Shown here: piece by piece, positions 13,166 to 32,955 of the stretch
Layout of the letters: the number at the start of each line of letters is the position of its first letter
Position numbering within the stretch: position 1 is the stretch's first letter
NCBI GenBank assembly: GCA_039619475.1
Contig: CM077115.1
Span: forward strand, 140,504,172 to 140,568,171
Source: Icerya purchasi
Taxonomy: Eukaryota > Arthropoda > Insecta > Hemiptera > Monophlebidae
Direction of reading: 5' to 3'
Length of the DNA stretch: 64,000 nt
Position numbers and translations under genes: made by a program
The notes under the pieces: generated by a model
The model's input: the letters and a program-made list of their open reading frames with translations, nothing else
The model's database searches: none
What the model was told of the DNA's origin: nothing

Positions 13166-13196
13166 AGTAGTTAATAAATCTGCGTTCTGGCAGCTC

Positions 13197-13204
13197 TGAC
13201 GTCA
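13197..13204. promoter_or_regulatory. CRE/ATF-type palindrome TGACGTCA near left terminus
   Basis: TGACGTCA, the perfect consensus for CREB/ATF bZIP factors, lies 31 bp inside the element end, and again symmetrically at 32,911-32,918. Terminal bZIP sites are known in the inverted terminal repeats of protein-primed replicons such as adenoviruses. A role here is inference. Confidence 0.35.
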
Positions 13205-13399
13205 CAACCCCTAAACGCGTGCAGAGGGCTGAAAGTAACGTAAGTATTTCATCAGGGAGGCAAAAACTAACCCAATTTTTTTATTCCGACGCCGAAAATT
13301 CACCCAAGTTTCCCCCAATTTCCCCAAAAATTCCCCCCGTGCGTTCCCCTGCACATTTCCGATAAACTGATCCGATTATTAATTAACATAAGTAAATTA

Positions 13400-15420
13400 A
13401 TTAATGTCTGAATGTAACCCAAGTCCCCGCCCGTCCCTCCCGCCGAAAGCGTTACCGCGATTTTTCAAAATTCCAGGCTTAAGTATGAAAATTCCAAAAT
13501 GTAACCCAAGTATGGTATTTAAAGCTAAAATTTAACCCAACACCCCCGTTCGCCCCTCACACATGTATATTACGATCCCGCGCACGCTCCGGTCGCCACC
13601 GCGAAAGCGCACGCGCCGTTCCCACGCATATTCCGATCTCCGCCGCGATATCACATCCGCACAAGCATTCCGTTCACGATACCACAATTTTTTATAAAAT
13701 TAACTTAACTATATTTTTTTATTTACCGGATTCCCCGATCGTACAGACAAATGCGAAAGCACACGCACTGTTCCCGCGCATATATCTAACATAACGTTCT
13801 CCACTGCAAAAGCGCACACGCCGTTCCTCCGCATGCCTCCCACGTTCACGATACCGAGATTATTTTTAATATTTCAAAGTCTAAGTATGGAAATTTCAAA
13901 ATTAGCCTAAATATGTTTTTTATTTTTCCGATTCCCTGATCTTACTGCCATATGCCATGGCGCACGTCCCGATCCCGCGCATATATCTAACATACCGTTA
14001 GCCTCCGCGAAAGCGCACGCGCCGATCCCGCGCACTCATTGTTTGCTTGCGGATACCGCATTTTTAAAAATATTTCAAAGCCTAAGTATATATTATTATT
14101 CATACACTGATCAATTTTTTAAGGATCTTTCGTATTTTTACAAGTATAGACGCACCCGCGACGAAAAATTCTCCGATCATAGCATTGCATGCAATCATCA
14201 CCGCGTTATAGTATTTTTTTTAATTATTTTTTTTTTTTCACATAACAACCCAATCCCTGCTCTGTTGGCTAAACCTACAAGGTTATCCAAAACATTTACA
14301 AATTAACAAATCAATTATTTCTATACTCAAAAACTATCCTTAGTCTCCTTTACCCTTTCCACCCTCTTTTCCAATCGATTATAATATACATTATTTATTT
14401 TTTCTTATCCTTCCATCATCTTACACACTATGGTAGCTTAACATCCAATCCTGCACATACCGCTGCCGCTGTTTTAATATCTAATATATAGCATTCTATT
14501 TACTTTTACTACGACCATTAAACCCCCGATCGACGCTCCCGACGCTTCCGTCATTTCATATTGAGAGGTAATTATTTTTTTATGTGACCGCTATGAATGC
14601 CCACCGTCCATTCCCACACACTCATCTGTTGTCGTTAGTTCCCATATCGTTCATAATAACTTTTTTCAATTCCAAATATTATGGAATTATTCCAATTATT
14701 TTTTTTTTATGCTTCCGATCATTTCTTCCGACTGTTGATAAATTTTTATTTTTTCTCCGATTCTAAAAATAAATCTCTCGATACCTTCACTGCCATGAAT
14801 GTGCACACACCCTCTGCAGTTAGTTTCCATATCGATCATAATAATTTTTTTTCAAATCTAACTATTATAGAATTAACCAAAGTATATTTTCTTTACTTCA
14901 AATCATTTCTTCCGACTGTCCATAATTTTTTTATATTTTTTTCTACGGTTCAAAAAATAAATCCGACGAAGTCTTCATCAATATGTTTGTACACAACATA
15001 TTCCCTCGCACTCAAATGCTACCGTTAGTTCTCACATCATTCATAATAATTTTTCATGTCTAAGTATTACTGAATTATTCTGAGTATATTTTTTCACCTC
15101 CAAAAATTTTTTCCAAACATGGGTAATAAAATTAATTCAAGTATATTTTTTTATTTAACACAGTTTCAAAATTTCTCCCTCCCCTATCCATCCTACACAA
15201 ATTACAAATCTTTCGTATTATTTTTCATGACTACATCCATCCGAAGCTACAGTGAAACCTAACCAACCATTCCCACGTTCACATATGCTAGAGCTGGTTT
15301 CCATATCATTCATATTAATTTTTTTCCGAGTCTATTAGTTTAAGAATATTTTTATTTATTTCAATCTCTAAATTTTTTTTTCTGAGTATTTTGTATTATA
15401 CATATTTTTTCCCCTCTCTA
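13400..15420. repeat. Degenerate ~190-bp satellite-like units (left arm, outer block)
   Basis: Loosely conserved units recur at about 180-265 bp spacing. The phrase CACGATACC/GCGGATACC recurs at about 13,668, 13,848 and 14,050. The phrase GTTAGTTCCCATATCGTTCA with ATAATAATTTTTT recurs at about 14,635, 14,818, 15,025 and 15,292. GCGCATATATCTAACATA occurs at about 13,775 and 13,978. Most units contain a version of AAATTAACCCAAGTATATTT followed by T-runs. The outermost kilobase is GC-rich, with GCGAAAGCGCACGCGCCG phrases. The block is mirrored at 30,695-32,715. Hydrophobic open frames within it (14,043-15,028) come from T-runs and I do not call them genes. Confidence 0.65.
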
Positions 15421-15740
15421 TTATGTCTGCACACAGTCGTAACGAAAAAATGCGCTGCTCATATCCTTACATGCATGTTGTCATGACCTTGAATTCTTTT
15501 GTGTGACAATCAATATTATGTCTGCTGGGATCTTCCCCTTCATATCTTTCGTCGAAACCTGTTCACATGTACACACATACACACAAACACATATATCCAA
15601 AAGAACATTTGCAAACTTCGACCGTGCACACCTACAACCAACTTTCACCAAAGGAATGTGGGTTTTCTGTTTTCTGGTGCAGCCCTCCCTTTTCAAAGGC
15701 AAGCATCGAGCTAGATTGTCGAACGGATCTGATCGTGCAG

Positions 15741-15745
15741 TCAGT
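15741..15745 (+). promoter_or_regulatory. Possible arthropod initiator (TCAGT) for the 334-codon gene
   Basis: TCAGT matches the arthropod Inr consensus. It lies 130 bp upstream of the ATG at 15,875, downstream of a more GC-balanced stretch. The intervening leader contains short upstream AUGs (15,754 and 15,763). The mirrored copy is at 30,370-30,374. This is weak evidence by itself. Confidence 0.25.
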
Positions 15746-15874
15746 ATTAGTGTTATGTCAAACATGTGCATTTTGTAGAATCTGTGTTCTTCACGCGTTA
15801 TTAAAGATTTGCCTTAACTTTAGAAGTAATAATTTTCTACGTTTTTAGTAAAAAGTTAAAAATATTATTCAAAC

Positions 15875-16879
15875 ATGAATAACAATGCCGATCCGATTGA
15901 TATTAAAACTGCTGAATTTATTCAGAATTCATTTTCGAGTGATAGCGGCTCGCATTCGTCTTCCTCACCTCCAACACCACAATGTGATGATGGTTATACA
16001 TCAGAAGAATCAACATCTTTTGTACGTAAAATCGTTGATCCCGTATTATTATCAGAACAAGTGGATGTAGCGGAATATTTTGTAGATATCAGCATCCATA
16101 TAGATTGTAATTATAGTTTCCAAGTAACCGAACTAGCAATGATTGATATGTCTGGCGGGAAGTGTTTGCATACGCTGTATAAACCAAGCAGAGCATGGCA
16201 TGCATCAAAAATGCCGCATTTACAATGTTCTTCAGTGAGTTATTACTTGAAAAACCCTTCATTATTTCCCTGTCGGGAAGAAATATTCATGGCACGCGAT
16301 ATATTCACGATATTGTCCCAAAAACCGAGAGCTCGCGTATATATTTTAACAGTATATGCTAAACTTACACTAATGGAACTTAACGAAAAGTCTGAATTGT
16401 TGCGTTACTTAGACTACGAAATCGTTAATATGGATCATGTCTTTCGAATGCCTAGTATTGAGGTTCTACATGAAGAGTATTTTGGTATAAGCAATTTGGT
16501 AACTTGTAAACACCATAATGAAAATGATAGTTTTCATTGTGCAGTGAAAAACGTTATGGTGATAAAGACCTGGTATGATCATGTTATCCATCCGCTGAAG
16601 CTTATGAATAATCTCAATATAAATGATTTAAGTCAGTTGTTCATTACAGTCACCAAAGAAATGATAATTACATTATTTCCGAGTTGTGTTGGAGACATTT
16701 ATATATTTTTACCAGATAGATTAAAACAGGATGATACGATAAAATCACTTCTACCATGTTTTGAACATGAGAATGATGAAGAATATTATTTCGATGACGA
16801 TACATTACGACATAGTACTCGAAATTGTATGAAAGTAAAAGATTGTATCGATTGTCAACGTACAATTCGCGCGGATTAA
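15875..16879 (+). CDS. DEDDh-exonuclease-like protein with degraded active site (left copy)
   Basis: A complete 334-codon frame from ATG to TAA, preceded by ATTCAAAC and followed by AT-rich sequence. Residues 20-50 are a Ser/Pro-rich acidic linker. From about residue 68 the fold resembles a DnaQ/RNase T (DEDDh) exonuclease. EYFVDIS (68-73) sits where DxE motif I should be, followed by FQVTELAMID (82-91). RVYILTVYAKLTLMEL (154-169) fits the middle strand. CKHHNENDSFHCAVKNV (211-227) fits the motif III region, with H221 kept but the following Asp replaced by Asn226. The DxE is DIS, so catalysis is probably lost. The tail is acidic (299-309, EYYFDDD) and ends in a C-x-C-rich segment (318-327). 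Role unknown: an inactive nuclease fold that binds nucleic acid or protein is my inference. An identical gene faces it in the other arm. Confidence 0.7.
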   Translation: MNNNADPIDIKTAEFIQNSFSSDSGSHSSSSPPTPQCDDGYTSEESTSFVRKIVDPVLLSEQVDVAEYFVDISIHIDCNYSFQVTELAMIDMSGGKCLHTLYKPSRAWHASKMPHLQCSSVSYYLKNPSLFPCREEIFMARDIFTILSQKPRARVYILTVYAKLTLMELNEKSELLRYLDYEIVNMDHVFRMPSIEVLHEEYFGISNLVTCKHHNENDSFHCAVKNVMVIKTWYDHVIHPLKLMNNLNINDLSQLFITVTKEMIITLFPSCVGDIYIFLPDRLKQDDTIKSLLPCFEHENDEEYYFDDDTLRHSTRNCMKVKDCIDCQRTIRAD

Positions 16880-17196
16880 AAATTCATTAATTCATTCGTT
16901 TTAACAATTTTGTAAATATTTATATGTATATATTTGTATATATTTTTCCCTCGATACATTCATTCTCCTATTGTATATATTTTTTCCTTTTCCCTCGATA
17001 TCCGTTCGTTCGTTCATTCTATTGTATATATTTTTTTCCTACATATTTTTCGTCTTTTTCCGATCTTTTTCGATTTACGTTTATTTAATTTATTTCTCTA
17101 TCTACCTCTGTCTTCCCCTCTTAACTTGAAGTACTGGTAATGATGAACTTTTTTCAAAAATCTGAACCAGTTGTGTAAAATGTATATAATTATTGT

Positions 17197-17361
17197 TTAA
17201 TTTTCGAATATAATCTTGCTTAATTTGTTCATATCTTTATAGATTAAAAAATTATATTTTTGCCTGTAATATTCCATCTTTTTTCTTTCTGTAACACACG
17301 AATCTAACTGTTCAACTTTTTCATGTACATCACATATTTCCGCAGCTGTGAGAGATTTCAT
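17197..17361 (-). CDS. Small coiled-coil-like ORF, ~54 codons from ATG (left copy)
   Basis: Minus-strand frame MKSLTAAEICDVHEKVEQLD... ending KLSKIIFEN, rich in heptad-like charged and hydrophobic residues, and predicted helical by eye. The open frame continues about 17 codons upstream of this ATG (...REPSESEVVSYKQ) without another ATG. It could therefore be the last exon of a spliced gene rather than a stand-alone gene. It is convergent with the 334-codon gene and identical in the other arm. I do not recognise the family. Confidence 0.4.
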   Translation of the reverse strand: MKSLTAAEICDVHEKVEQLDSCVTERKKMEYYRQKYNFLIYKDMNKLSKIIFEN

Positions 17362-17899
17362 CTGTTTGTAGGATACAACCTCGGACTCTGATGGTTCTCT
17401 CAAAAATTTTTAAAATCTTTCGTAATCGCATTAAAAAAAAAAAAATACATATATGGTTTAATATTTTATATTTTGTAAATACTTTTTCGCGATATATACG
17501 AAATCATTCTAAGATTCATTGATGTTAAATGTATAGAAAGAGACAGGTAGAAGAAACCTGGTAGTTTACGAGACATAGAATGTTCGAAGAAAAAACGCGC
17601 TAGCACGAGCAGATCAGGATTGCAACGTGCGAGCGAGAGACTGCATGCATGTATGTGTGTGCGATAAAGGGAGATAATCTCCAGAACAACAACTTGATTG
17701 TAAAAAAAAAAACGTCGAAATCGTCTCTAGCCACCCCCCGAACAAGAGACGTATCGAAAACAAAAAAATAAAGGCAGTCTAAAAAAAAACTTCTTTTTTT
17801 CATTCATAGTATTTTGTTGTTAGAATACTTATGGTCGTTGCCGTTCTCGATCGCGCTCCACTGTAAAGACCTCTGAACACGCAATACTAACGTTGCCAA

Positions 17900-19300
17900 C
17901 ACTAAGTTCCATATCGAATATAAGATTTTTTCCTGTGTTATAAAATTATCCCAAGTATATTTTTATTCTTTTGTTACGCTAAAAGTTTTTCAAATCTTTT
18001 TTAATATATATCGTGCACACAAATGTACGCCGCAGACACTTCTCGCTTCATTACCACTAATATATCTATACGTTCATTGTCTCTATTCTTATCATAATAT
18101 AGTTTTTTCAGGAAAATCGTAGAAAATGGCTCTTCGCTCCGTTCATACTATGTAATCTATTTCCAAAATTTAAATCATGCCTAATTACTTTAAAATCAGC
18201 TTAAATATATTTTATCATTTCCAAAATTAATAATCTCATTACAGATCATTATCTCATTTCCCGATCGTACATAATATATATATTTTTTTTTGTTATTATT
18301 TTATTTGTTTCCGTAAGAATTCTGGATATAATTCATATCAAACATTTGACCTTCACATTGTACCTATATACTCATCTGTTTCAAAATTTTCAAAATAAGT
18401 ATTATAAATAAATCCAAGTATACTATCCCAATATAAAAAAAAAAACTCACATTGCATCTTCCATCAAACAATTAATTTTTTAGTATATCATACATATTAT
18501 TTTTTTATCGTTTAAATTTTTCTTCAATTTGCAACTGTCATAATCTATAGAAAACGTCTTGTTGACTAGATGCATGACGAATACACTTTATAATTACATC
18601 ATGAAATCATTTTTTCTTTAATTATTTTTTAACATCATGAAATTATAGTAGTATTTTTTAATTTTTTATTTTTCATACATGACAAAGATATTGAATTCAT
18701 CACATCTATAAATGCATTCACTGTACGTCTCCATTAAACTATCATGAATTTTTAAAATTAGCCCAAACATACTATTTTTCACTATAAATTACGGTCGCTC
18801 CTGTAATTTTTTCTATATAATCACTAACCTACGAAATCACTTCGATCGTTTCACTCATACCGAAGCAATCACTCCTTTTCCTTCATACTATCTATCTTCA
18901 AAGTCTAATAATATAACATGAAATTAGTCTAAATATAAAAATCCTGCAACATGTTTTAAAATTAGTCGAAGTGGACTATTTTTTCACTATCAAATCCGAT
19001 CATACATCATTTTTTTTCTATATTATCATTATTGCAAGACCCTACAAAATCGTTTCGCTCATTTTACTTATAGCAATGCAATCAATCCTTTTTTCCTAGT
19101 GCTAGCGATCTTTAAAATTTAATACTATAATACGAAATTATTCTAAATATACGTTCATGCTAGCAAAATTATTACATCACCCCTTTTTTCTACTCAATTG
19201 TATGTATGTTTCCGAGAAATCTCATTATATATTTTCAAAATTAACTCCAGCCCACGTACTATTTTTATATTTCACTTATTTATAATTGTTTTAATCATAT
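17900..19300. repeat. Degenerate satellite-like units (left arm, middle block)
   Basis: This continues the motif family of the outer block. Versions of AAATTATCCCAAGTATATTT occur at about 17,943, 18,193, 18,758, 18,926, 18,964 and 19,135, next to phrases such as CACTTCGATCGTTTCACTCA and TTTTTTTCTATATTATC. I see no credible gene. The block is mirrored at 26,815-28,215. Confidence 0.55.
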
Positions 19301-19915
19301 CTGATGCAAGACCCTGTAAAAGAATACAAGCAATTCCCACACATATAATTATTGTTCAGAGGTGTTGTGGGCATACTTTATCATATACTTTTGTAAGCTC
19401 ATACCGAACGGACTTCATAACCTTTTATCATTCATTTAGATGCGGAGACACACAACTTTTAGCGGAGCAATCTATTCTTTGCTAAACTGATGATTGAAGG
19501 CATCCTTTTTTTTTTTCTCCAAAAAAGCATGGAATAGCGAGGATTTTTTTACACGCTCAAAATAAATGAGATAATTATTTCTCTATATTTAATACATTAC
19601 CAAGAATGTATATATCACTCGATTGACTCTTTCACTCATTCGTCGATTTCAAATGCGAAGGAAATTTTCATACCATGCTTTATTCATACATTTTATTTCT
19701 AAAACCCTATCACTTGAATAGAATGTTATAGGGCTGTTGTAAATGTATGAGTCTTATTATTTGAAATATAAAATTTGAAGGAAATTTATATATCTTGCAT
19801 CGTTTTAAGATGTTTTATTTTTACATTTTTTTTTAATCTCCCTCTTACTATTATTTTTGAAATGGAGGTTGATGACTATGATTAGTATTTGTGATTATAG
19901 AGGGAGAGGTAAACG

Positions 19916-20075
19916 TTTTCCTCACTTTTGACTAATTGTAACCAATTTTCCAATGATTTTTTCACCATTTTTCATACATCTTACTACTTTTATGTTTGTT
20001 TTAATCAATTTTTCGCTATTTCACATCATTTTCCAGTGTTTTTTAGTACTTTTTACAAAATTTTCCTTGATCTTT
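19916..20075. repeat. Phased T-tract array 2 (left arm)
   Basis: This is the reverse complement of the A-tract array at 26,040-26,199. T-runs of 3-6 bases recur about every 10-11 bp for roughly 16 helical turns. It ends at GTAAACGTT (19,909-19,917). Confidence 0.75.
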
Positions 20076-20206
20076 CAACATGTTTGACAAGTTTTTTTCT
20101 TTTCTTTCTTACATCTCATTACTATTTCATTAATCGTCAATGATAACAGTACATATTTATGTTTTCAAACCTTACACTTCATCTGTACACATCTATGGCT
20201 TGTTGA

Positions 20207-20444
20207 TTATTGTAGGTCTACAATCACTATCTCCATTTGATTATTGGATTTAATATTCACATCTTTGAACGTTTGATTTAATGAATTGACATGGACTTTG
20301 TATTTCGCTCGCCCGCTCAATATCTTCATCAGTCTATTATACCATCGTTTAATAAGAGCATCCATAAGGTTCGAGACGATTACTGGATGTTTTCTCAACA
20401 CATTTACAGACCTACCCCCGTACACTAAGGAAATCTTTAAACAT
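20207..20444 (-). CDS. Small ORF with G-run frameshift (left copy)
   Basis: Minus strand: the ATG at 20,444 opens ten codons (MFKDFLSVRG) and then meets a stop just after a run of five G (20,415-20,419 on the plus strand as C). The +1 frame continues without a stop for about 70 codons: VLRKHPVIVSNLMDALIKRW, then a basic stretch, ending EIVIVDLQ at 20,207. It may be a sequencing/mutation indel, a spliced exon, or programmed +1 frameshifting. It is identical in the other arm. No family recognised. It sits between the two phased A-tract arrays. Confidence 0.4.
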
Positions 20445-20567
20445 CTCTGTAATCACTCCTTTTAAGCTAGAGGGGGCAAGGGACTCCTATAATCGTTTTG
20501 ACAATCAACACATCGTCGTCTATTGTCATGTCTTTACTCGCCGTTGCACAGACATGTAGTAAACGTT

Positions 20568-20788
20568 TTTTTCTTTTACAATTTTCTTATATTTCAACAC
20601 TATTACAACATTTTACATCATTTCTAACTAATTTTAATCAGTTTTACATTATTTCTTAACATGTTCTTATGTTTTAGGGTCTTTTTGCGCTATTTTTTTC
20701 ACCAATTGATGCTTTTTCTCAGAATTTTCTTGCGTTTTAGTGTCTTTCACACAATTTTACTCAATTTTCATCATCTTCGTCAGTTTTT
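20568..20788. repeat. Phased T-tract array 1 (left arm)
   Basis: This is the reverse complement of the array at 25,327-25,547: about 22 T-runs at about 10-bp spacing. GTAAACGTT at 20,559-20,567 bounds it. Confidence 0.8.
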
Positions 20789-21029
20789 CATTTATCTCAT
20801 ACATTATATGTCTAAATGTGTCGAATATCCATCCTTTTAACTACAAATATTTTATAATTTGATATGGTCATAGATAATAACAAAAGATTTAATTCAATAT
20901 TGTTTACAATTTATTCAATAATTTTTATGACATTCATCATAATCAATAAAAATAATCATTGCTTCATTGCTTCAATGTTAAATTCTAATATATCATTATC
21001 AGCTATTAATATTTTACACCATAAAACGT

Positions 21030-22007
21030 CTAATTTAACTGAATATATCCTTCTTCAGCCAACTTTTCTTCAATCATCCGAATTTCAGTATCTAAACCAT
21101 TATTTCCTGATTGTTTAGATTTGTGTAGTACCAATAATCGTTCAACCAATTCATTAGGATCGTCAGAATAATTGAAATGAGAGTCTTCAAGATTTACTTT
21201 GCGAACAGTTCTATATGCACGTTTCTTTTTCGTTTTACCTGGATAAACTTTTACATTTTTTATGATGGATTGAAACAGAGGACGTATTATTTTTCTGTAT
21301 TTAGGAAGCGGAGTACCCTTTAATACACCAGTAACACGTACGTGAGCTCCGGTAAATTCCAGTATTTGTTTATATAAAGCTAAATCATTATTTGTATATT
21401 TATTCTCATCAACATTTGTTTCCATCAGTAAATGAATCAGTCCTTGTGTGTAAGGAAATTTAGATAGTGTTCTTCCTTTTCCTAAATAAATTTCACCACA
21501 CTTTCGATTCCACGAAATTGGTGTTGAACCCATCATATACTCATGAGTGTTAGCATTATATTGTATTCCATACACAGGATCATTTGGTACAGGTTCACCG
21601 CCATCTATTTGAAATGGAGCCATTTCATGTATGTTAATAGCCTTATATCCAGACTTATTATCGCGATTTTCATATTCTTCTTCATTTTCAATATCAGTCT
21701 CATAATCACGTTTCCAGCTGTCATTATAAAGTTTGTGACGTTTCACCATTGATGTATCATCACTTATTCCATCAGAATCATTTTTCATCCTTTTAGGTAT
21801 TTGTAGTGTTTCCCGAATATCCAATAACTGTTTTGTAACAGGTTCAAGCATGATAGATGACATATTTGTAATAGATTTCCAGGTCTGTAATGCATTATAT
21901 TTTTTCATTATATCGCTGCGTATCCTTTCCAGTTCACTTTTAAGAATTGCTTCTTTATTTATTCCATTATTACCAACATTAACCATCACTTTACTCATTG
22001 ACATCAT
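21030..22007 (-). CDS. DUF8207-type protein, 325 codons (left copy)
   Basis: A complete frame from ATG (22,007) to TAA (21,030). Residues 15-70 look like an amphipathic helix or coiled coil (KEAILKSELERI). Residues 100-120 are acidic. The conserved part is 143-245: DPVYGIQYNANTHEYMMGST, then YTQGLIHLL, NNDLALYKQILEFTGAH and KYRKIIRPLF. I recall this signature (DPVYGIRY...MMG, a YTxGLxxLL-like strand, LxxYKxIL, KYRxII) as that of the arthropod family DUF8207. The C-terminus ELVERLLVLHKSKQSGNNG then EIRMIEEKLAEEGYI is also typical. Function is unknown. Such genes are abundant in insect and spider genomes as mobile-element cargo. It differs from the right-arm copy only at residue 30 (Arg here, His there). 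The frame reads away from the palindrome centre. Confidence 0.75.
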   Translation of the reverse strand: MMSMSKVMVNVGNNGINKEAILKSELERIRSDIMKKYNALQTWKSITNMSSIMLEPVTKQLLDIRETLQIPKRMKNDSDGISDDTSMVKRHKLYNDSWKRDYETDIENEEEYENRDNKSGYKAINIHEMAPFQIDGGEPVPNDPVYGIQYNANTHEYMMGSTPISWNRKCGEIYLGKGRTLSKFPYTQGLIHLLMETNVDENKYTNNDLALYKQILEFTGAHVRVTGVLKGTPLPKYRKIIRPLFQSIIKNVKVYPGKTKKKRAYRTVRKVNLEDSHFNYSDDPNELVERLLVLHKSKQSGNNGLDTEIRMIEEKLAEEGYIQLN

Positions 22008-22382
22008 TATTACAGATAATTAAAAATTCGTCAAAACACACATGTACAACTTCTCTATGTATACATTTCACAATCTATTTTGATCACAGAGAGTTAATGC
22101 ATATTCATCATCAGTAATTTATAGAATGTTTTTCAAGGCTTAAAGAAATATACAGTGCTAACATGCTTACTATATACATACTGTATTTCAATCTGTTCCC
22201 TAAATACACTATTTATGAAACAAATTCTTTATAAATAAATATAAACACCAAAAATGGGGTAAGAAATCTTAATGTAATTTAAGAATCATATTATTTATTT
22301 TTCAATATACTAATATCTCAAAATATGTGATAACACCTAAATTTTAACCAATGATATTACAAAATCTAGAGCAGTGTGATTC

Positions 22383-22620
22383 ACACACATATATATCTAC
22401 ATATATATCTACATATATACATACACATATATACATATATATCTACATATATACATACATATCTACATATATACATACATATCTACATATATACATACAT
22501 ATCTACCTATATACATATATACATGCATATATCTACATATATACATATATATCAACATATACACATATATATCTACATATATACATATATATCGACATGT
22601 ACTAATATATATCTACATAT
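22383..22620. repeat. (ATATATCTAC/ATACAT)n microsatellite, left arm
   Basis: A short-period array built of ATATATCTACATATATAC-type units. It is open in several frames, producing spurious Tyr/Ile/His-rich ORFs. The counterpart at 23,401-23,733 is 94 bp longer, which is the only sizeable difference between the arms. Confidence 0.9.
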
Positions 22621-22993
22621 GACATGCTATACTTTATGAGATGAGTATGTTACAGAATTCAATTATCAACTAACAATATTGTTATACAAACATAATTTAT
22701 AAAATGATATAAATTTCACAAATGTCACTAAAGGTACATGTTTTTCTTTTTGGGACATTCTACACAAAATTACTCAACAACACTACACTTTAAATAATTT
22801 TTAACAAAAATTATAATTTTTTTATATTATTTACTATTTTTTATTACTTAAATTATACTTCACGTTATATAAGTTATACGAATTTCAATATATCAAGCTA
22901 GGGTGGATTTGCTTGAAATGTAACATCGGCCTAAGCAGTTGATGGAATAAAAGTGAATTTGTCATATTTTATAGTTTTGAGGGGGCTTGTTTC

Positions 22994-23027
22994 AAATACC
23001 ACCATATGATCCATCTTCAATAATCTA
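22994..23027. other. 34-bp unique spacer at the palindrome centre
   Basis: This is the only unpaired sequence of the element, between GGGGGCTTGTTTC and GAAACAAGCCCCC. It would be the hairpin loop if the strand folded on itself. Confidence 0.9.
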
Positions 23028-23400
23028 GAAACAAGCCCCCTCAAAACTATAAAATATGACAAATTCACTTTTATTCCATCAACTGCTTAGGCCGATGTTA
23101 CATTTCAAGCAAATCCACCCTAGCTTGATATATTGAAATTTGTATAACTTATATAACGTGAAGTATAATTTAAGTAATAAAAAATAGTAAATAATATAAA
23201 AAAATTATAATTTTTGTTAAAAATTATTTAAAGTGTAGTGTTGTTGAGTAATTTTGTGTAGAATGTCCCAAAAAGAAAAACATGTACCTTTAGTGACATT
23301 TGTGAAATTTATATCATTTTATAAATTATGTTTGTATAACAATATTGTTAGTTGATAATTGAATTCTGTAACATACTCATCTCATAAAGTATAGCATGTC

Positions 23401-23733
23401 ATATGTAGATATATATTAGTACATGTCGATATATATGTATATATGTAGATATATATGTGTATATGTTGATATATATGTATATATGTAGATATATGCATGT
23501 ATATATGTATATAGGTAGATATGTATGTATATATGTAGATATGTATGTATATATGTAGATATATATGTATATATGTAGATATATATATATATATATATGT
23601 AGATATATATATATATATGTATATATGTAGATATATATATATATGTATATATGTAGATATATATATGTATATATGTAGATATGTATGTGTATATGTATAT
23701 ATGTACATATATATGTAGATATATATGTGTGTG
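23401..23733. repeat. (GTATATATGTAGATATATAT)n microsatellite, right arm
   Basis: Expanded counterpart of the left-arm microsatellite, with additional pure TA stretches around 23,581-23,650. Apparent ORFs across it are low-complexity artefacts. Confidence 0.9.
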
Positions 23734-24107
23734 AATCACACTGCTCTAGATTTTGTAATATCATTGGTTAAAATTTAGGTGTTATCACATATTTTGAGAT
23801 ATTAGTATATTGAAAAATAAATAATATGATTCTTAAATTACATTAAGATTTCTTACCCCATTTTTGGTGTTTATATTTATTTATAAAGAATTTGTTTCAT
23901 AAATAGTGTATTTAGGGAACAGATTGAAATACAGTATGTATATAGTAAGCATGTTAGCACTGTATATTTCTTTAAGCCTTGAAAAACATTCTATAAATTA
24001 CTGATGATGAATATGCATTAACTCTCTGTGATCAAAATAGATTGTGAAATGTATACATAGAGAAGTTGTACATGTGTGTTTTGACGAATTTTTAATTATC
24101 TGTAATA

Positions 24108-25085
24108 ATGATGTCAATGAGTAAAGTGATGGTTAATGTTGGTAATAATGGAATAAATAAAGAAGCAATTCTTAAAAGTGAACTGGAAAGGATACACAGC
24201 GATATAATGAAAAAATATAATGCATTACAGACCTGGAAATCTATTACAAATATGTCATCTATCATGCTTGAACCTGTTACAAAACAGTTATTGGATATTC
24301 GGGAAACATTACAAATACCTAAAAGGATGAAAAATGATTCTGATGGAATAAGTGATGATACATCAATGGTGAAACGTCACAAACTTTATAATGACAGCTG
24401 GAAACGTGATTATGAGACTGATATTGAAAATGAAGAAGAATATGAAAATCGCGATAATAAGTCTGGATATAAGGCTATTAACATACATGAAATGGCTCCA
24501 TTTCAAATAGATGGCGGTGAACCTGTACCAAATGATCCTGTGTATGGAATACAATATAATGCTAACACTCATGAGTATATGATGGGTTCAACACCAATTT
24601 CGTGGAATCGAAAGTGTGGTGAAATTTATTTAGGAAAAGGAAGAACACTATCTAAATTTCCTTACACACAAGGACTGATTCATTTACTGATGGAAACAAA
24701 TGTTGATGAGAATAAATATACAAATAATGATTTAGCTTTATATAAACAAATACTGGAATTTACCGGAGCTCACGTACGTGTTACTGGTGTATTAAAGGGT
24801 ACTCCGCTTCCTAAATACAGAAAAATAATACGTCCTCTGTTTCAATCCATCATAAAAAATGTAAAAGTTTATCCAGGTAAAACGAAAAAGAAACGTGCAT
24901 ATAGAACTGTTCGCAAAGTAAATCTTGAAGACTCTCATTTCAATTATTCTGACGATCCTAATGAATTGGTTGAACGATTATTGGTACTACACAAATCTAA
25001 ACAATCAGGAAATAATGGTTTAGATACTGAAATTCGGATGATTGAAGAAAAGTTGGCTGAAGAAGGATATATTCAGTTAAATTAG
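24108..25085 (+). CDS. DUF8207-type protein, 325 codons (right copy)
   Basis: Identical to the left-arm copy except codon 30, CAC (His) instead of CGC (Arg), a CpG transition. The ATG at 24,108 is followed in frame by further Met codons at positions 2 and 4. Upstream, 24,000-24,107 is AT-rich and without an obvious TATA at the usual distance. The frame remains fully open in both arms. With the near absence of divergence this says only that the element is recent or homogenised, not that the protein is under selection. The domain layout is as described for the left copy: helical N-terminus, acidic middle, conserved 143-245, conserved C-terminal helix. Confidence 0.75.
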   Translation: MMSMSKVMVNVGNNGINKEAILKSELERIHSDIMKKYNALQTWKSITNMSSIMLEPVTKQLLDIRETLQIPKRMKNDSDGISDDTSMVKRHKLYNDSWKRDYETDIENEEEYENRDNKSGYKAINIHEMAPFQIDGGEPVPNDPVYGIQYNANTHEYMMGSTPISWNRKCGEIYLGKGRTLSKFPYTQGLIHLLMETNVDENKYTNNDLALYKQILEFTGAHVRVTGVLKGTPLPKYRKIIRPLFQSIIKNVKVYPGKTKKKRAYRTVRKVNLEDSHFNYSDDPNELVERLLVLHKSKQSGNNGLDTEIRMIEEKLAEEGYIQLN

Positions 25086-25326
25086 ACGTTTTATGGTGTA
25101 AAATATTAATAGCTGATAATGATATATTAGAATTTAACATTGAAGCAATGAAGCAATGATTATTTTTATTGATTATGATGAATGTCATAAAAATTATTGA
25201 ATAAATTGTAAACAATATTGAATTAAATCTTTTGTTATTATCTATGACCATATCAAATTATAAAATATTTGTAGTTAAAAGGATGGATATTCGACACATT
25301 TAGACATATAATGTATGAGATAAATG

Positions 25327-25547
25327 AAAAACTGACGAAGATGATGAAAATTGAGTAAAATTGTGTGAAAGACACTAAAACGCAAGAAAATTCTGAGAAA
25401 AAGCATCAATTGGTGAAAAAAATAGCGCAAAAAGACCCTAAAACATAAGAACATGTTAAGAAATAATGTAAAACTGATTAAAATTAGTTAGAAATGATGT
25501 AAAATGTTGTAATAGTGTTGAAATATAAGAAAATTGTAAAAGAAAAA
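25327..25547 (+). repeat. Phased A-tract array 1: ~22 A-runs at ~10-bp period
   Basis: A-runs of 3-7 bases have centres near 25329, 25339, 25348, 25358, 25369, 25378, 25388, 25400, 25409, 25419, 25431 and 25441. They continue 25461, 25471, 25481, 25493, 25502, 25511, 25522, 25531 and 25540. Spacing averages close to one helical turn. All runs are on the same strand. Sequence between them is not conserved, so it is not a copied tandem repeat. Such arrays are intrinsically curved and resemble the periodic An/Tn clusters of nematode germline genes. The array ends in AACGTTTAC (25,548-25,556). Confidence 0.85.
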
Positions 25548-25670
25548 AACGTTTACTACATGTCTGTGCAACGGCGAGTAAAGACATGACAATAGACGAC
25601 GATGTGTTGATTGTCAAAACGATTATAGGAGTCCCTTGCCCCCTCTAGCTTAAAAGGAGTGATTACAGAG

Positions 25671-25908
25671 ATGTTTAAAGATTTCCTTAGTGTACGGGGG
25701 TAGGTCTGTAAATGTGTTGAGAAAACATCCAGTAATCGTCTCGAACCTTATGGATGCTCTTATTAAACGATGGTATAATAGACTGATGAAGATATTGAGC
25801 GGGCGAGCGAAATACAAAGTCCATGTCAATTCATTAAATCAAACGTTCAAAGATGTGAATATTAAATCCAATAATCAAATGGAGATAGTGATTGTAGACC
25901 TACAATAA
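25671..25908 (+). CDS. Small ORF with G-run frameshift (right copy)
   Basis: Same arrangement as in the left arm. ATG at 25,671, stop at 25,701 immediately after GGGGG (25,696-25,700), and the +1 frame open to TAA after 25,908. The body is basic (IKRWYNRLMKILSGRAKYK) and carries no motif I recognise. A second short frame just upstream (25,587, MTIDDDVLIVKTIIGVPCPL) also reads like coding sequence. The 25,560-25,975 block may therefore hold one spliced or frameshifted gene. It lies exactly between the two phased A-tract arrays. Confidence 0.4.
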
Positions 25909-26039
25909 TCAACAAGCCATAGATGTGTACAGATGAAGTGTAAGGTTTGAAAACATAAATATGTACTGTTATCATTGACGATTAATGAAATAGTAATGAG
26001 ATGTAAGAAAGAAAAGAAAAAAACTTGTCAAACATGTTG

Positions 26040-26199
26040 AAAGATCAAGGAAAATTTTGTAAAAAGTACTAAAAAACACTGGAAAATGATGTGAAATAGC
26101 GAAAAATTGATTAAAACAAACATAAAAGTAGTAAGATGTATGAAAAATGGTGAAAAAATCATTGGAAAATTGGTTACAATTAGTCAAAAGTGAGGAAAA
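26040..26199 (+). repeat. Phased A-tract array 2: ~16 A-runs at ~10.4-bp period
   Basis: A-run centres lie near 26041, 26052, 26063, 26073, 26084, 26095, 26104, 26114, 26125, 26134, 26145, 26155, 26167, 26178, 26187 and 26197. The array ends in the same AACGTTTAC (26,198-26,206) as array 1. Confidence 0.8.
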
Positions 26200-26814
26200 C
26201 GTTTACCTCTCCCTCTATAATCACAAATACTAATCATAGTCATCAACCTCCATTTCAAAAATAATAGTAAGAGGGAGATTAAAAAAAAATGTAAAAATAA
26301 AACATCTTAAAACGATGCAAGATATATAAATTTCCTTCAAATTTTATATTTCAAATAATAAGACTCATACATTTACAACAGCCCTATAACATTCTATTCA
26401 AGTGATAGGGTTTTAGAAATAAAATGTATGAATAAAGCATGGTATGAAAATTTCCTTCGCATTTGAAATCGACGAATGAGTGAAAGAGTCAATCGAGTGA
26501 TATATACATTCTTGGTAATGTATTAAATATAGAGAAATAATTATCTCATTTATTTTGAGCGTGTAAAAAAATCCTCGCTATTCCATGCTTTTTTGGAGAA
26601 AAAAAAAAAGGATGCCTTCAATCATCAGTTTAGCAAAGAATAGATTGCTCCGCTAAAAGTTGTGTGTCTCCGCATCTAAATGAATGATAAAAGGTTATGA
26701 AGTCCGTTCGGTATGAGCTTACAAAAGTATATGATAAAGTATGCCCACAACACCTCTGAACAATAATTATATGTGTGGGAATTGCTTGTATTCTTTTACA
26801 GGGTCTTGCATCAG

Positions 26815-28215
26815 ATATGATTAAAACAATTATAAATAAGTGAAATATAAAAATAGTACGTGGGCTGGAGTTAATTTTGAAAATATATAATGAGATTTCT
26901 CGGAAACATACATACAATTGAGTAGAAAAAAGGGGTGATGTAATAATTTTGCTAGCATGAACGTATATTTAGAATAATTTCGTATTATAGTATTAAATTT
27001 TAAAGATCGCTAGCACTAGGAAAAAAGGATTGATTGCATTGCTATAAGTAAAATGAGCGAAACGATTTTGTAGGGTCTTGCAATAATGATAATATAGAAA
27101 AAAAATGATGTATGATCGGATTTGATAGTGAAAAAATAGTCCACTTCGACTAATTTTAAAACATGTTGCAGGATTTTTATATTTAGACTAATTTCATGTT
27201 ATATTATTAGACTTTGAAGATAGATAGTATGAAGGAAAAGGAGTGATTGCTTCGGTATGAGTGAAACGATCGAAGTGATTTCGTAGGTTAGTGATTATAT
27301 AGAAAAAATTACAGGAGCGACCGTAATTTATAGTGAAAAATAGTATGTTTGGGCTAATTTTAAAAATTCATGATAGTTTAATGGAGACGTACAGTGAATG
27401 CATTTATAGATGTGATGAATTCAATATCTTTGTCATGTATGAAAAATAAAAAATTAAAAAATACTACTATAATTTCATGATGTTAAAAAATAATTAAAGA
27501 AAAAATGATTTCATGATGTAATTATAAAGTGTATTCGTCATGCATCTAGTCAACAAGACGTTTTCTATAGATTATGACAGTTGCAAATTGAAGAAAAATT
27601 TAAACGATAAAAAAATAATATGTATGATATACTAAAAAATTAATTGTTTGATGGAAGATGCAATGTGAGTTTTTTTTTTTATATTGGGATAGTATACTTG
27701 GATTTATTTATAATACTTATTTTGAAAATTTTGAAACAGATGAGTATATAGGTACAATGTGAAGGTCAAATGTTTGATATGAATTATATCCAGAATTCTT
27801 ACGGAAACAAATAAAATAATAACAAAAAAAAATATATATATTATGTACGATCGGGAAATGAGATAATGATCTGTAATGAGATTATTAATTTTGGAAATGA
27901 TAAAATATATTTAAGCTGATTTTAAAGTAATTAGGCATGATTTAAATTTTGGAAATAGATTACATAGTATGAACGGAGCGAAGAGCCATTTTCTACGATT
28001 TTCCTGAAAAAACTATATTATGATAAGAATAGAGACAATGAACGTATAGATATATTAGTGGTAATGAAGCGAGAAGTGTCTGCGGCGTACATTTGTGTGC
28101 ACGATATATATTAAAAAAGATTTGAAAAACTTTTAGCGTAACAAAAGAATAAAAATATACTTGGGATAATTTTATAACACAGGAAAAAATCTTATATTCG
28201 ATATGGAACTTAGTG
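26815..28215. repeat. Degenerate satellite-like units (right arm, middle block)
   Basis: Mirror image of 17,900-19,300, with recurring TATATTTAGACTAATTTC / ATATACTTGGGATAATTTTA phrases. No gene seen. Confidence 0.55.
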
Positions 28216-28753
28216 TTGGCAACGTTAGTATTGCGTGTTCAGAGGTCTTTACAGTGGAGCGCGATCGAGAACGGCAACGACCATAAGTATTCTAACAACA
28301 AAATACTATGAATGAAAAAAAGAAGTTTTTTTTTAGACTGCCTTTATTTTTTTGTTTTCGATACGTCTCTTGTTCGGGGGGTGGCTAGAGACGATTTCGA
28401 CGTTTTTTTTTTTACAATCAAGTTGTTGTTCTGGAGATTATCTCCCTTTATCGCACACACATACATGCATGCAGTCTCTCGCTCGCACGTTGCAATCCTG
28501 ATCTGCTCGTGCTAGCGCGTTTTTTCTTCGAACATTCTATGTCTCGTAAACTACCAGGTTTCTTCTACCTGTCTCTTTCTATACATTTAACATCAATGAA
28601 TCTTAGAATGATTTCGTATATATCGCGAAAAAGTATTTACAAAATATAAAATATTAAACCATATATGTATTTTTTTTTTTTTAATGCGATTACGAAAGAT
28701 TTTAAAAATTTTTGAGAGAACCATCAGAGTCCGAGGTTGTATCCTACAAACAG

Positions 28754-28918
28754 ATGAAATCTCTCACAGCTGCGGAAATATGTGATGTACATGAAAAAGT
28801 TGAACAGTTAGATTCGTGTGTTACAGAAAGAAAAAAGATGGAATATTACAGGCAAAAATATAATTTTTTAATCTATAAAGATATGAACAAATTAAGCAAG
28901 ATTATATTCGAAAATTAA
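28754..28918 (+). CDS. Small coiled-coil-like ORF, ~54 codons from ATG (right copy)
   Basis: Identical to the left-arm copy. The first in-frame ATG is at 28,754. The frame is open from about 28,700 without another ATG, which suggests either this start or a splice acceptor upstream. It ends 317 bp before the convergent 334-codon gene. Confidence 0.4.
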   Translation: MKSLTAAEICDVHEKVEQLDSCVTERKKMEYYRQKYNFLIYKDMNKLSKIIFEN

Positions 28919-29235
28919 ACAATAATTATATACATTTTACACAACTGGTTCAGATTTTTGAAAAAAGTTCATCATTACCAGTACTTCAAGTTAAGAGGGG
29001 AAGACAGAGGTAGATAGAGAAATAAATTAAATAAACGTAAATCGAAAAAGATCGGAAAAAGACGAAAAATATGTAGGAAAAAAATATATACAATAGAATG
29101 AACGAACGAACGGATATCGAGGGAAAAGGAAAAAATATATACAATAGGAGAATGAATGTATCGAGGGAAAAATATATACAAATATATACATATAAATATT
29201 TACAAAATTGTTAAAACGAATGAATTAATGAATTT

Positions 29236-30240
29236 TTAATCCGCGCGAATTGTACGTTGACAATCGATACAATCTTTTACTTTCATACAATTTCGAGTAC
29301 TATGTCGTAATGTATCGTCATCGAAATAATATTCTTCATCATTCTCATGTTCAAAACATGGTAGAAGTGATTTTATCGTATCATCCTGTTTTAATCTATC
29401 TGGTAAAAATATATAAATGTCTCCAACACAACTCGGAAATAATGTAATTATCATTTCTTTGGTGACTGTAATGAACAACTGACTTAAATCATTTATATTG
29501 AGATTATTCATAAGCTTCAGCGGATGGATAACATGATCATACCAGGTCTTTATCACCATAACGTTTTTCACTGCACAATGAAAACTATCATTTTCATTAT
29601 GGTGTTTACAAGTTACCAAATTGCTTATACCAAAATACTCTTCATGTAGAACCTCAATACTAGGCATTCGAAAGACATGATCCATATTAACGATTTCGTA
29701 GTCTAAGTAACGCAACAATTCAGACTTTTCGTTAAGTTCCATTAGTGTAAGTTTAGCATATACTGTTAAAATATATACGCGAGCTCTCGGTTTTTGGGAC
29801 AATATCGTGAATATATCGCGTGCCATGAATATTTCTTCCCGACAGGGAAATAATGAAGGGTTTTTCAAGTAATAACTCACTGAAGAACATTGTAAATGCG
29901 GCATTTTTGATGCATGCCATGCTCTGCTTGGTTTATACAGCGTATGCAAACACTTCCCGCCAGACATATCAATCATTGCTAGTTCGGTTACTTGGAAACT
30001 ATAATTACAATCTATATGGATGCTGATATCTACAAAATATTCCGCTACATCCACTTGTTCTGATAATAATACGGGATCAACGATTTTACGTACAAAAGAT
30101 GTTGATTCTTCTGATGTATAACCATCATCACATTGTGGTGTTGGAGGTGAGGAAGACGAATGCGAGCCGCTATCACTCGAAAATGAATTCTGAATAAATT
30201 CAGCAGTTTTAATATCAATCGGATCGGCATTGTTATTCAT
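29236..30240 (-). CDS. DEDDh-exonuclease-like protein with degraded active site (right copy)
   Basis: Translated identically to 15,875-16,879. In this arm it is convergent with the small coiled-coil ORF and the DUF8207-type gene, which read rightward. The possible leader contains the mirrored TCAGT initiator and the same upstream AUGs. The DxE of motif I (DIS) and the Asp of motif III (Asn226) are missing in both copies, so the loss predates the palindrome or is shared through conversion. Other interpretations (a divergent viral DNA-binding protein) remain open. Confidence 0.7.
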   Translation of the reverse strand: MNNNADPIDIKTAEFIQNSFSSDSGSHSSSSPPTPQCDDGYTSEESTSFVRKIVDPVLLSEQVDVAEYFVDISIHIDCNYSFQVTELAMIDMSGGKCLHTLYKPSRAWHASKMPHLQCSSVSYYLKNPSLFPCREEIFMARDIFTILSQKPRARVYILTVYAKLTLMELNEKSELLRYLDYEIVNMDHVFRMPSIEVLHEEYFGISNLVTCKHHNENDSFHCAVKNVMVIKTWYDHVIHPLKLMNNLNINDLSQLFITVTKEMIITLFPSCVGDIYIFLPDRLKQDDTIKSLLPCFEHENDEEYYFDDDTLRHSTRNCMKVKDCIDCQRTIRAD

Positions 30241-30694
30241 GTTTGAATAATATTTTTAACTTTTTACTAAAAACGTAGAAAATTATTACTTCTAAAGTTA
30301 AGGCAAATCTTTAATAACGCGTGAAGAACACAGATTCTACAAAATGCACATGTTTGACATAACACTAATACTGACTGCACGATCAGATCCGTTCGACAAT
30401 CTAGCTCGATGCTTGCCTTTGAAAAGGGAGGGCTGCACCAGAAAACAGAAAACCCACATTCCTTTGGTGAAAGTTGGTTGTAGGTGTGCACGGTCGAAGT
30501 TTGCAAATGTTCTTTTGGATATATGTGTTTGTGTGTATGTGTGTACATGTGAACAGGTTTCGACGAAAGATATGAAGGGGAAGATCCCAGCAGACATAAT
30601 ATTGATTGTCACACAAAAGAATTCAAGGTCATGACAACATGCATGTAAGGATATGAGCAGCGCATTTTTTCGTTACGACTGTGTGCAGACATAA

Positions 30695-32715
30695 TAGAGA
30701 GGGGAAAAAATATGTATAATACAAAATACTCAGAAAAAAAAATTTAGAGATTGAAATAAATAAAAATATTCTTAAACTAATAGACTCGGAAAAAAATTAA
30801 TATGAATGATATGGAAACCAGCTCTAGCATATGTGAACGTGGGAATGGTTGGTTAGGTTTCACTGTAGCTTCGGATGGATGTAGTCATGAAAAATAATAC
30901 GAAAGATTTGTAATTTGTGTAGGATGGATAGGGGAGGGAGAAATTTTGAAACTGTGTTAAATAAAAAAATATACTTGAATTAATTTTATTACCCATGTTT
31001 GGAAAAAATTTTTGGAGGTGAAAAAATATACTCAGAATAATTCAGTAATACTTAGACATGAAAAATTATTATGAATGATGTGAGAACTAACGGTAGCATT
31101 TGAGTGCGAGGGAATATGTTGTGTACAAACATATTGATGAAGACTTCGTCGGATTTATTTTTTGAACCGTAGAAAAAAATATAAAAAAATTATGGACAGT
31201 CGGAAGAAATGATTTGAAGTAAAGAAAATATACTTTGGTTAATTCTATAATAGTTAGATTTGAAAAAAAATTATTATGATCGATATGGAAACTAACTGCA
31301 GAGGGTGTGTGCACATTCATGGCAGTGAAGGTATCGAGAGATTTATTTTTAGAATCGGAGAAAAAATAAAAATTTATCAACAGTCGGAAGAAATGATCGG
31401 AAGCATAAAAAAAAAATAATTGGAATAATTCCATAATATTTGGAATTGAAAAAAGTTATTATGAACGATATGGGAACTAACGACAACAGATGAGTGTGTG
31501 GGAATGGACGGTGGGCATTCATAGCGGTCACATAAAAAAATAATTACCTCTCAATATGAAATGACGGAAGCGTCGGGAGCGTCGATCGGGGGTTTAATGG
31601 TCGTAGTAAAAGTAAATAGAATGCTATATATTAGATATTAAAACAGCGGCAGCGGTATGTGCAGGATTGGATGTTAAGCTACCATAGTGTGTAAGATGAT
31701 GGAAGGATAAGAAAAAATAAATAATGTATATTATAATCGATTGGAAAAGAGGGTGGAAAGGGTAAAGGAGACTAAGGATAGTTTTTGAGTATAGAAATAA
31801 TTGATTTGTTAATTTGTAAATGTTTTGGATAACCTTGTAGGTTTAGCCAACAGAGCAGGGATTGGGTTGTTATGTGAAAAAAAAAAAATAATTAAAAAAA
31901 ATACTATAACGCGGTGATGATTGCATGCAATGCTATGATCGGAGAATTTTTCGTCGCGGGTGCGTCTATACTTGTAAAAATACGAAAGATCCTTAAAAAA
32001 TTGATCAGTGTATGAATAATAATATATACTTAGGCTTTGAAATATTTTTAAAAATGCGGTATCCGCAAGCAAACAATGAGTGCGCGGGATCGGCGCGTGC
32101 GCTTTCGCGGAGGCTAACGGTATGTTAGATATATGCGCGGGATCGGGACGTGCGCCATGGCATATGGCAGTAAGATCAGGGAATCGGAAAAATAAAAAAC
32201 ATATTTAGGCTAATTTTGAAATTTCCATACTTAGACTTTGAAATATTAAAAATAATCTCGGTATCGTGAACGTGGGAGGCATGCGGAGGAACGGCGTGTG
32301 CGCTTTTGCAGTGGAGAACGTTATGTTAGATATATGCGCGGGAACAGTGCGTGTGCTTTCGCATTTGTCTGTACGATCGGGGAATCCGGTAAATAAAAAA
32401 ATATAGTTAAGTTAATTTTATAAAAAATTGTGGTATCGTGAACGGAATGCTTGTGCGGATGTGATATCGCGGCGGAGATCGGAATATGCGTGGGAACGGC
32501 GCGTGCGCTTTCGCGGTGGCGACCGGAGCGTGCGCGGGATCGTAATATACATGTGTGAGGGGCGAACGGGGGTGTTGGGTTAAATTTTAGCTTTAAATAC
32601 CATACTTGGGTTACATTTTGGAATTTTCATACTTAAGCCTGGAATTTTGAAAAATCGCGGTAACGCTTTCGGCGGGAGGGACGGGCGGGGACTTGGGTTA
32701 CATTCAGACATTAAT
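30695..32715. repeat. Degenerate ~190-bp satellite-like units (right arm, outer block)
   Basis: Mirror image of 13,400-15,420, including the GC-rich outer kilobase. Confidence 0.65.
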
Positions 32716-32910
32716 TAATTTACTTATGTTAATTAATAATCGGATCAGTTTATCGGAAATGTGCAGGGGAACGCACGGGGGGAATTTTTGGGGAAATTGG
32801 GGGAAACTTGGGTGAATTTTCGGCGTCGGAATAAAAAAATTGGGTTAGTTTTTGCCTCCCTGATGAAATACTTACGTTACTTTCAGCCCTCTGCACGCGT
32901 TTAGGGGTTG

Positions 32911-32918
32911 TGACGTCA
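32911..32918. promoter_or_regulatory. CRE/ATF-type palindrome TGACGTCA near right terminus
   Basis: Symmetric counterpart of 13,197-13,204, 31 bp inside the right end. Confidence 0.35.
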
Positions 32919-32949
32919 GAGCTGCCAGAACGCAGATTTATTAACTACT

Positions 32950-32955
32950 TATGAT
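32950..32955. repeat. 6-bp target-site duplication, right copy (TATGAT)
   Basis: Exact copy of 13,160-13,165, adjoining the last element base. Confidence 0.85.

Follow-up and report, generated by a model that had tools for sequence, protein, structure and literature searches.

The window studied here is a 64,000-bp stretch of the Icerya purchasi genome (C1:140504172-140568171) that contains a 19,784-bp palindromic element with the ends of a Polinton (Maverick) transposon. Genome searches covered the 1,103,370,081-bp assembly in 41 contigs, built from 36.4 Gb of PacBio HiFi reads with hifiasm according to its description (PMC11183206), and all loci reported here are known from assembled sequence alone. 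The element comprises the following features, given in window positions.

13166..32949, no strand: whole palindromic element, 19,784 bp, delimited by self-BLAST, genome copies and target site duplications (TSDs)
13160..13165, plus strand: left TSD, TATGAT
32950..32955, plus strand: right TSD, TATGAT
13166..13171, plus strand: end motif (AGT)2, as in PMC8097293
32944..32949, minus strand: end motif, (ACT)2 as read on the plus strand
13166..22993, plus strand: left arm, 9,828 bp
23029..32949, minus strand: right arm, 9,921 bp
22994..23028, plus strand: central loop, 35 nt, kept among copies in either orientation
13166..21805, plus strand: outer 8,640 bp of the left arm, without a single difference from its mirror stretch at 24310-32949
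21806..24309, no strand: central zone containing every arm-to-arm difference
22387..22620, plus strand: AT-rich tandem array of the left arm, period about 20 bp
23401..23728, minus strand: AT-rich tandem array of the right arm, 94 bp longer than the left one
15875..16879, plus strand: P1 open reading frame (ORF) of the left arm, 334 amino acids (aa); no Pfam, PHROG or NCBIfam match above cut-off and no significant PDB sequence match
29236..30240, minus strand: P1 ORF of the right arm, identical in nucleotide sequence to the left one
21030..22007, minus strand: P2 ORF of the left arm, 325 aa; no family match above cut-off
24108..25085, plus strand: P2 ORF of the right arm, differing by 2 nt
16911..17198, plus strand: stretch 3' of P1, 75-87% like the centres of two inverted-pair loci of DNA polymerase B (PolB), L114 and L116

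Self-BLAST of positions 12501-33600 returned a minus-strand match of 9,453 bp at 99.6% identity together with an inner match of 1,242 bp. The palindrome is real and far beyond chance. A sequence-only reading of the window had described a near-perfect 19.8-kb palindrome with arms of 9.83 and 9.92 kb around a 34-bp spacer; the arms measure as it said, and the spacer exists with a corrected length of 35 nt. Its further claims also stood: the termini are AGTAGTTAA and TTAACTACT, a perfect TATGAT duplication lies at both outer edges (with unlike flanks beyond), and each arm carries two intact ORFs, P1 and P2. Rather than a unique core between short inverted repeats, which is the Polinton norm, the whole element is inverted repeat, and the sampled copies are alike in this. 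The window element has the trait of a snap-back molecule, being self-complementary with a loop.

As that reading had also stated, the scanned arm ORFs revealed no polymerase, integrase, ATPase or capsid gene, although spliced or very divergent genes could escape such a scan and no separate capsid model was run. P1, P2, an 81-aa frame and nine further left-arm stop-to-stop frames of at least 80 aa gave no Pfam match at the curated cut-off, in a scan that left out a few overlapping left-arm frames. Across the genome, none of 133 matches to protein-primed PolB (91 of 638 candidates scored) and none of 136 matches to the packaging ATPase falls inside the element. The viral contigs searched held no relatives, Rfam and tRNA scans returned nothing, and an AlphaFold2 model of P1 alone was unusable, with a mean predicted local distance difference test score (pLDDT) of 34. 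The second half of P1 has a C-x2-H-x7-C pattern, seen by eye, which we take to recall the Maelstrom domain; no search supported the likeness. The full 334-aa frame of P1 is open in 10 of the 13 left-arm copies fetched besides the window copy, and a frame of 331 aa in one more; the full 325-aa frame of P2 is open in nine of 14 fetched copies (one fetch was off target).

The sequence-only reading had taken the palindrome for one transposed unit with Polinton-type ends. In agreement with this, many other copies with these ends were found in the genome. A DNA search with the terminal 435 bp gave 1,690 first-look candidates, and all 40 that were scored matched; 30 ends were cut out of these 40, 28 of them forming 14 end-pairs. 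Every one of the 14 end-pairs is flanked by a perfect 6-bp TSD, two of which (CACACA and TATATA) lie in simple repeats and are weak. This set leaves out the subfamily copy C2:70.07M, where the fetch stopped short of the termini, and C2:77.55M, for which just the right terminus could be located. The ends read AGTAGT in 21 of 30 cases and AGTAGG in nine, and (AGT)2//(ACT)2 is the commonest end motif of vertebrate Mavericks according to PMC8097293.

The two genes show the same inverted arrangement genome-wide. Among 120 scored copies of P1 (of 3,510 candidates), 110 fall into 55 plus/minus pairs, typically 13-14 kb apart, and ten are unpaired; bit scores are equal within 50 of the 55 pairs. The P2 search (123 scored of 2,730 candidates) yielded 54 minus/plus pairs, 40 of them equal in score, and 15 unpaired copies. 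As a control, neighbours within 45 kb of each other were paired among 150 scored matches to the retroelement integrase domain (rve), which gave a single plus/minus pair and a single minus/plus pair. A search with the loop region returned 97 candidates, and all 40 that were scored also match in reverse, so each is the centre of a palindrome. Both orientations of the loop occur along the chromosome, as expected of random insertion. Nearly all scored copies of the element are palindromic.

Palindromes of this length could be produced by the assembler, if hifiasm had closed perfect inverted repeats into false palindromes around a unique core that it did not see. HiFi reads may be shorter than 20 kb, and a run of N in the palindromic PolB locus C1:427.2M, together with two copies at scaffold starts, indicates that such loci strain the assembler. 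Wrong joins, however, would not place the same 6-bp duplication on both flanks of all 14 end-pairs, and they are further opposed by the near absence of inverted pairs in the rve control, by copy-specific variants that occur in both arms, and by a 97% palindrome with a 53-nt loop that is tied to a sequenced full-length relative (described below). On the TSD pairing and the rve control we rejected both assembly artefact and chance as main readings; the artefact is a weak explanation with very little probability left to it.

We then compared the two arms within copies. In the window copy, there are no arm differences in the outer 8,640 bp, and the eight difference events are confined to the innermost 1.19 kb; the probability of this clustering under uniform spread is 5e-8, or 0.002 when only the three events outside the microsatellite are used. 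Over the first 1.9 kb of the arms, 13 of 14 pairs differ at 0-2 positions, and one, a 35-kb span, at 8. Copies, by comparison, differ from each other at as many as 34 positions over this length, with a mean of 12.2 mismatches per kb. In P1, read in both arms of 14 copies, every variant was present in both arms: 27 single-nucleotide changes, 19 of which are private to single copies and one of which creates a premature stop, and two deletions, of 1 bp and 9 bp. One-arm differences numbered 0 in 14 x 1,005 bp. P2 was compared between the arms of eight copies, leaving out c12 (off-target fetch) and c14 (deletion): six were identical, the window copy had two differences and one copy had one. At an offset of 5-6 kb, five pairs were identical within the copy at 999 of 999 positions and 99.1-99.8% identical to the window; at 8.5-9.5 kb, two of four pairs reached 99.9-100%. 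A subfamily copy that differs from the window at 63 of 1,002 P1 positions shows 0 of 1,002 between its own arms.

These counts bear on the possibility that a single founder underwent an inverted duplication and was then amplified as a normal DNA transposon, the identity of the arms reflecting very recent spread. The conservation of the loop in most centres fits such a history, as it makes the palindrome ancestral to the family. Without re-copying or conversion, however, arm divergence should equal copy divergence, whereas copies differ and the arms within a copy do not; moreover, another Polinton family made its own palindrome. We consider a single founder highly improbable as the explanation.

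The arms are homogenised copy by copy, and near the loop one-arm variants persist. Beside the loop, 25 one-arm differences occur in 5,314 bp (12 copies), versus 14 in 26,947 bp at the ends (14 copies; p 3e-11); without the 35-kb recombinant the end count is 6 (p 3e-14). The loop-side counts use the 12 of 15 centres with a parsable loop, L051 (new centre), L053 (altered stem) and L057 (off-centre fetch) having been dropped, and the between-copy value of 53 per kb at the centre was not used because it is inflated by L058. One-arm variants at 10, 25 and 38 nt on the loop side are common to 4, 2 and 3 copies, in the same arm relative to the loop. Since these asymmetries are common to several copies, they were carried through transposition, while the outer arms lost theirs.

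The serious rival is gene conversion, in which the element would transpose as a duplex and arm-to-arm conversion in the chromosome after insertion would keep the arms identical, poorly so near the centre. The arms of Y-chromosome palindromes are kept alike in this way. Gene conversion also predicts variants in both arms, including stops and indels, as well as the drop near the loop, and an aged pair at C2:458.7M, both arms of which carry a stop, shows a single difference in 1,005 positions. Common P1 changes appear to lean synonymous (3 nonsynonymous to 5 synonymous) and private ones, present in both arms, look near neutral (14 nonsynonymous or stop to 5 synonymous), as if some had arisen after insertion, a contrast that is not significant (p 0.10). 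Several observations point the other way. The 35-kb copy retains eight arm differences in 1,934 bp, so that its arms are not being kept identical. The damaged pair C2:77.55M, with a shortened right arm, retains 18 of 1,002 between its P1 genes, which is weak evidence as its left end was not found where expected. The centre asymmetries common to copies passed through transposition and the outer ones did not, and the structure of a PolB palindrome shows that it arose de novo by folding. Taking these together, we rate gene conversion as unlikely, though it deserves to be taken seriously.

Some copies depart from the simple layout. The 35-kb span at C1:484998097-485033336 (L017/L010) is flanked by a perfect TSD (CTCGGT) and contains four P2 genes. 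Because its two loops point the same way and the ends belong to different sub-lineages, this copy reads as a double palindrome, fused from two palindromes by recombination rather than produced by a second snap-back. The copy at C1:540033707-540056548, with two P1 and four P2 genes in a similar arrangement, is probably also a double palindrome. In L058 (C1:199539525-199540724), the central few hundred bp are 82-83% like the window in both arms, which suggests that a whole divergent tract was exchanged in both. Separately, element copies stand at C2:2372-17021, right where the second chromosome scaffold begins, and at C17:982-15703, likewise at the beginning of C17 (at least 188 kb), and look as if palindromes break contigs.

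Full-length Polintons occur in the same genome and provide a second case of palindrome formation. The 133 PolB matches resolve into 89 loci. In 37 of the 77 unpaired loci, a packaging ATPase of the Pox_A32 type follows on the same strand at a distance of 6.2-12.9 kb, which is the layout of ordinary Polintons. No such ATPase follows any of the 12 paired loci, which form six plus/minus pairs. When the six pair centres were fetched, three proved palindromic through the centre (97.0%, 99.1% and 99.1% over 1 kb), and the other three had inverted arms of 186-401 bp at 98.7-100% with a spacer of 165-533 bp. The two 99.1% centres lie next to each other, are nearly identical and may represent a single element that was doubled: the locus C1:427203115-427222515 holds four PolB genes in alternating orientation, with a run of N between two near-identical palindromes, and a palindrome may have been split or duplicated there during assembly. 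An attempt to locate the terminus of the PolB pair C1:540.6M was unsuccessful.

The 97% case could be tied to a full-length relative. The PolB palindrome C1:475533444-475553252 is 19,809 bp long, has AGTAGT/ACTACT ends and the TSD GGCGAG, and sits within LINE-like sequence. A Polinton of the same family, C2:121154541-121175291, is 20,751 bp long, carries PolB and ATPase genes, has the TSD CCATCA, and its terminal repeats are alike over at least 380 bp. The two elements are 97% identical over 384 bp at the PolB end, and at a junction 9,693 bp inside the Polinton the palindrome is 94-95% alike on both arms. At the turning point, GATTT and its inverse AAATC lie 53 nt apart in both full-length copies examined, giving a 5-bp inverted microhomology and a 53-nt loop. 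By this comparison, the PolB palindrome appears to be one Polinton half turned round at a microhomology fold and derived from one end of a longer parent genome.

The other end of Polintons may behave similarly. Neighbours among the 136 ATPase matches form eleven minus/plus pairs 8-20 kb apart and three plus/minus pairs. Two of the minus/plus pairs were tested. The related pair C2:107.09M is palindromic at its midpoint, with arms 98.6-99.3% alike over 430-439 bp, and its centre falls in the homologous region between the modules (82% alike). Snap-back elements derived from the right end may therefore be no rarer than those derived from the PolB end. The pair C2:167.08M was tried as a right-end palindrome and rejected, its midpoint being colinear with the full-length Polinton (100% over 1,201 bp).

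We conclude that the window element probably belongs to a high-copy, non-autonomous Polinton derivative with a snap-back palindrome as its mobile genome, mobilised in trans, with a second arm that is made anew on the first as template. As the element combines Polinton ends and TSDs with no Polinton enzymes that could be found, both replication and integration would be provided in trans by full-length Polintons. A Polinton PolB would start protein-primed synthesis at the (AGT)2 end, a motif that would fit initiation with sliding back by analogy with the phi29 paradigm. The nascent or displaced strand, self-complementary by origin, would fold at or near the central loop and prime on itself, making the second arm a fresh copy of the first. 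The stem annealed beside the loop would retain both old strands and hence the old differences, and the finished 20-kb duplex would be integrated by a Polinton integrase with a 6-bp duplication. As the second arm would be copied from the first, the same mutations would be expected in both arms except next to the loop. We infer which polymerase and integrase act, the hairpin intermediate and the timing of arm copying. Snap-back synthesis could account for both the origin of the palindrome and the homogenisation of its arms.

Several observations weigh against this snap-back model. Scores are unequal in 14 of the 54 P2 pairs, P2 being nearer the centre than P1, and the other two pairs compared at 8.5-9.5 kb are only 97.2% alike within the copy, with differences in or near the microsatellite. 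The central gradient could also arise if gene conversion in place breaks down close to the centre, or if mutation is higher there. Arms with alleles of distinct sub-lineages, as in the 35-kb copy and perhaps in C2:77.55M, mean that recombination also acts. In L051 (C1:279785675-279786874), a sister of the window copy with two differences in 1.9 kb of end, the centre lies 235 bp short of the usual loop and has a 6-bp inverted microhomology with a 27-nt loop. This new centre may be a re-fold or a central deletion; we rejected it as proof of a second fold, since a central deletion between 6-bp direct repeats yields the same product. The fold in the PolB palindrome is a single case (the chance of at least 5 bp is 0.003 per random fold there), its comparison with the Polinton covers the PolB end and the junction and not the stretch between, and one of the two tested ATPase inverted pairs is not palindromic at its midpoint. 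The full-length relative that the sequence-only reading had proposed to look for behind the same ends was found in part: the PolB palindrome and the Polinton share the terminal hexamer, but the sequence beyond it is not evidently alike, and no autonomous element with PolB and exactly the window element's ends was found in the genome. Nor was a non-palindromic parent of the P1/P2 family found there, and the rve search for a Polinton integrase was swamped by retroelements. The likeness of 16911-17198 to two PolB pair centres may indicate kinship to an autonomous Polinton of the genome or may reflect a small common repeat.

The element can be set beside several known systems. Foldback (FB/Galileo) transposons, like the window element, have long inverted repeats and spread non-autonomously; they belong to other superfamilies and make other target duplications, and we know of no near-perfect 10-kb arms with copy-by-copy homogenisation among them. 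With Polintons, the element shares the 6-bp TSD, the (AGT)2//(ACT)2 ends and the size, 19.8 kb lying within the 12.7-24.6 kb given in PMC8097293; it differs in having an inverted repeat of 9.8 kb, against 46-1,447 bp for intact vertebrate Mavericks in the same source, and in having no polB, integrase, ATPase or capsid gene that we could find. Snapback (defective interfering) genomes of adeno-associated virus are self-complementary, derive from one genome end, are symmetric or looped and replicate with helper functions, as PMC8235507 describes them. Those are packaged parvovirus molecules, whereas the likewise self-complementary elements of Icerya are 20 kb long, have Polinton ends and are integrated at many sites. 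Human fold-back inverted duplications have a non-duplicated spacer, of 766-70,466 bp, and 2-8 bp of inverted microhomology at the turn (PMC3907307). The turn of the PolB palindrome, with its 53-nt spacer and 5-bp microhomology, is of this kind; the human cases concern broken chromosomes, and here a mobile element with its own ends is involved.

No report of palindromic Polintons was found in the open literature searched, with subscription papers and bioRxiv-only preprints outside the search, and a search of PMC12721341 turned up nothing on palindromic, inverted, head-to-head or mirror-image Polintons. Our best reading is a palindromic non-autonomous Polinton class with copy-by-copy arm re-synthesis. 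The two alternatives that had been offered from the window, a fold-back derivative or a palindromic class, both hold, and the class is seen in more than one Polinton family. We also put forward, tentatively and as a possibility, that the class is self-perpetuating. The replicating unit would in effect be a 10-kb hairpin-ended half-genome, doubled by snap-back in each transposition cycle; the Polintons of this insect would go on producing molecules of this kind out of their own ends, copies that integrated would be inherited counterparts of defective interfering genomes, and one lineage would have become a 20-kb parasite with two genes of its own.

The rest of the window contains a hAT-type transposase-like frame of 472 aa with a C-terminal dimerisation region (2577-3995) and a 447-aa open frame for a cathepsin-like papain-family protease with an I29 propeptide (44428-45771). 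LINE-like reverse transcriptase pieces, some below the Pfam cut-off, lie at 41184-42275 and 53185-58463; the former is 78-81% like the sequence that hosts the PolB palindrome C1:475.5M.

Polinton replication is mostly inferred from gene content. If the proposed mechanism is true, these copies would record that replication, and strand switching by an animal protein-primed polymerase could be read naturally from the homogenisation of the arms and its gradient at the centre. With a full-length Polinton and a palindrome that matches half of it, the fold point can be placed at single-base resolution. Perfect palindromes of 20 kb are normally unstable, and the mechanism, if true, would explain the success of one as a transposon. 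Such elements would be a hard case for assemblers and repeat annotators, and they could supply long hairpin RNA to small-RNA silencing, an idea open to testing. Finally, defective-interfering-like molecules would become heritable, and folded-back, defective virus-like genomes would be successful genomic parasites.

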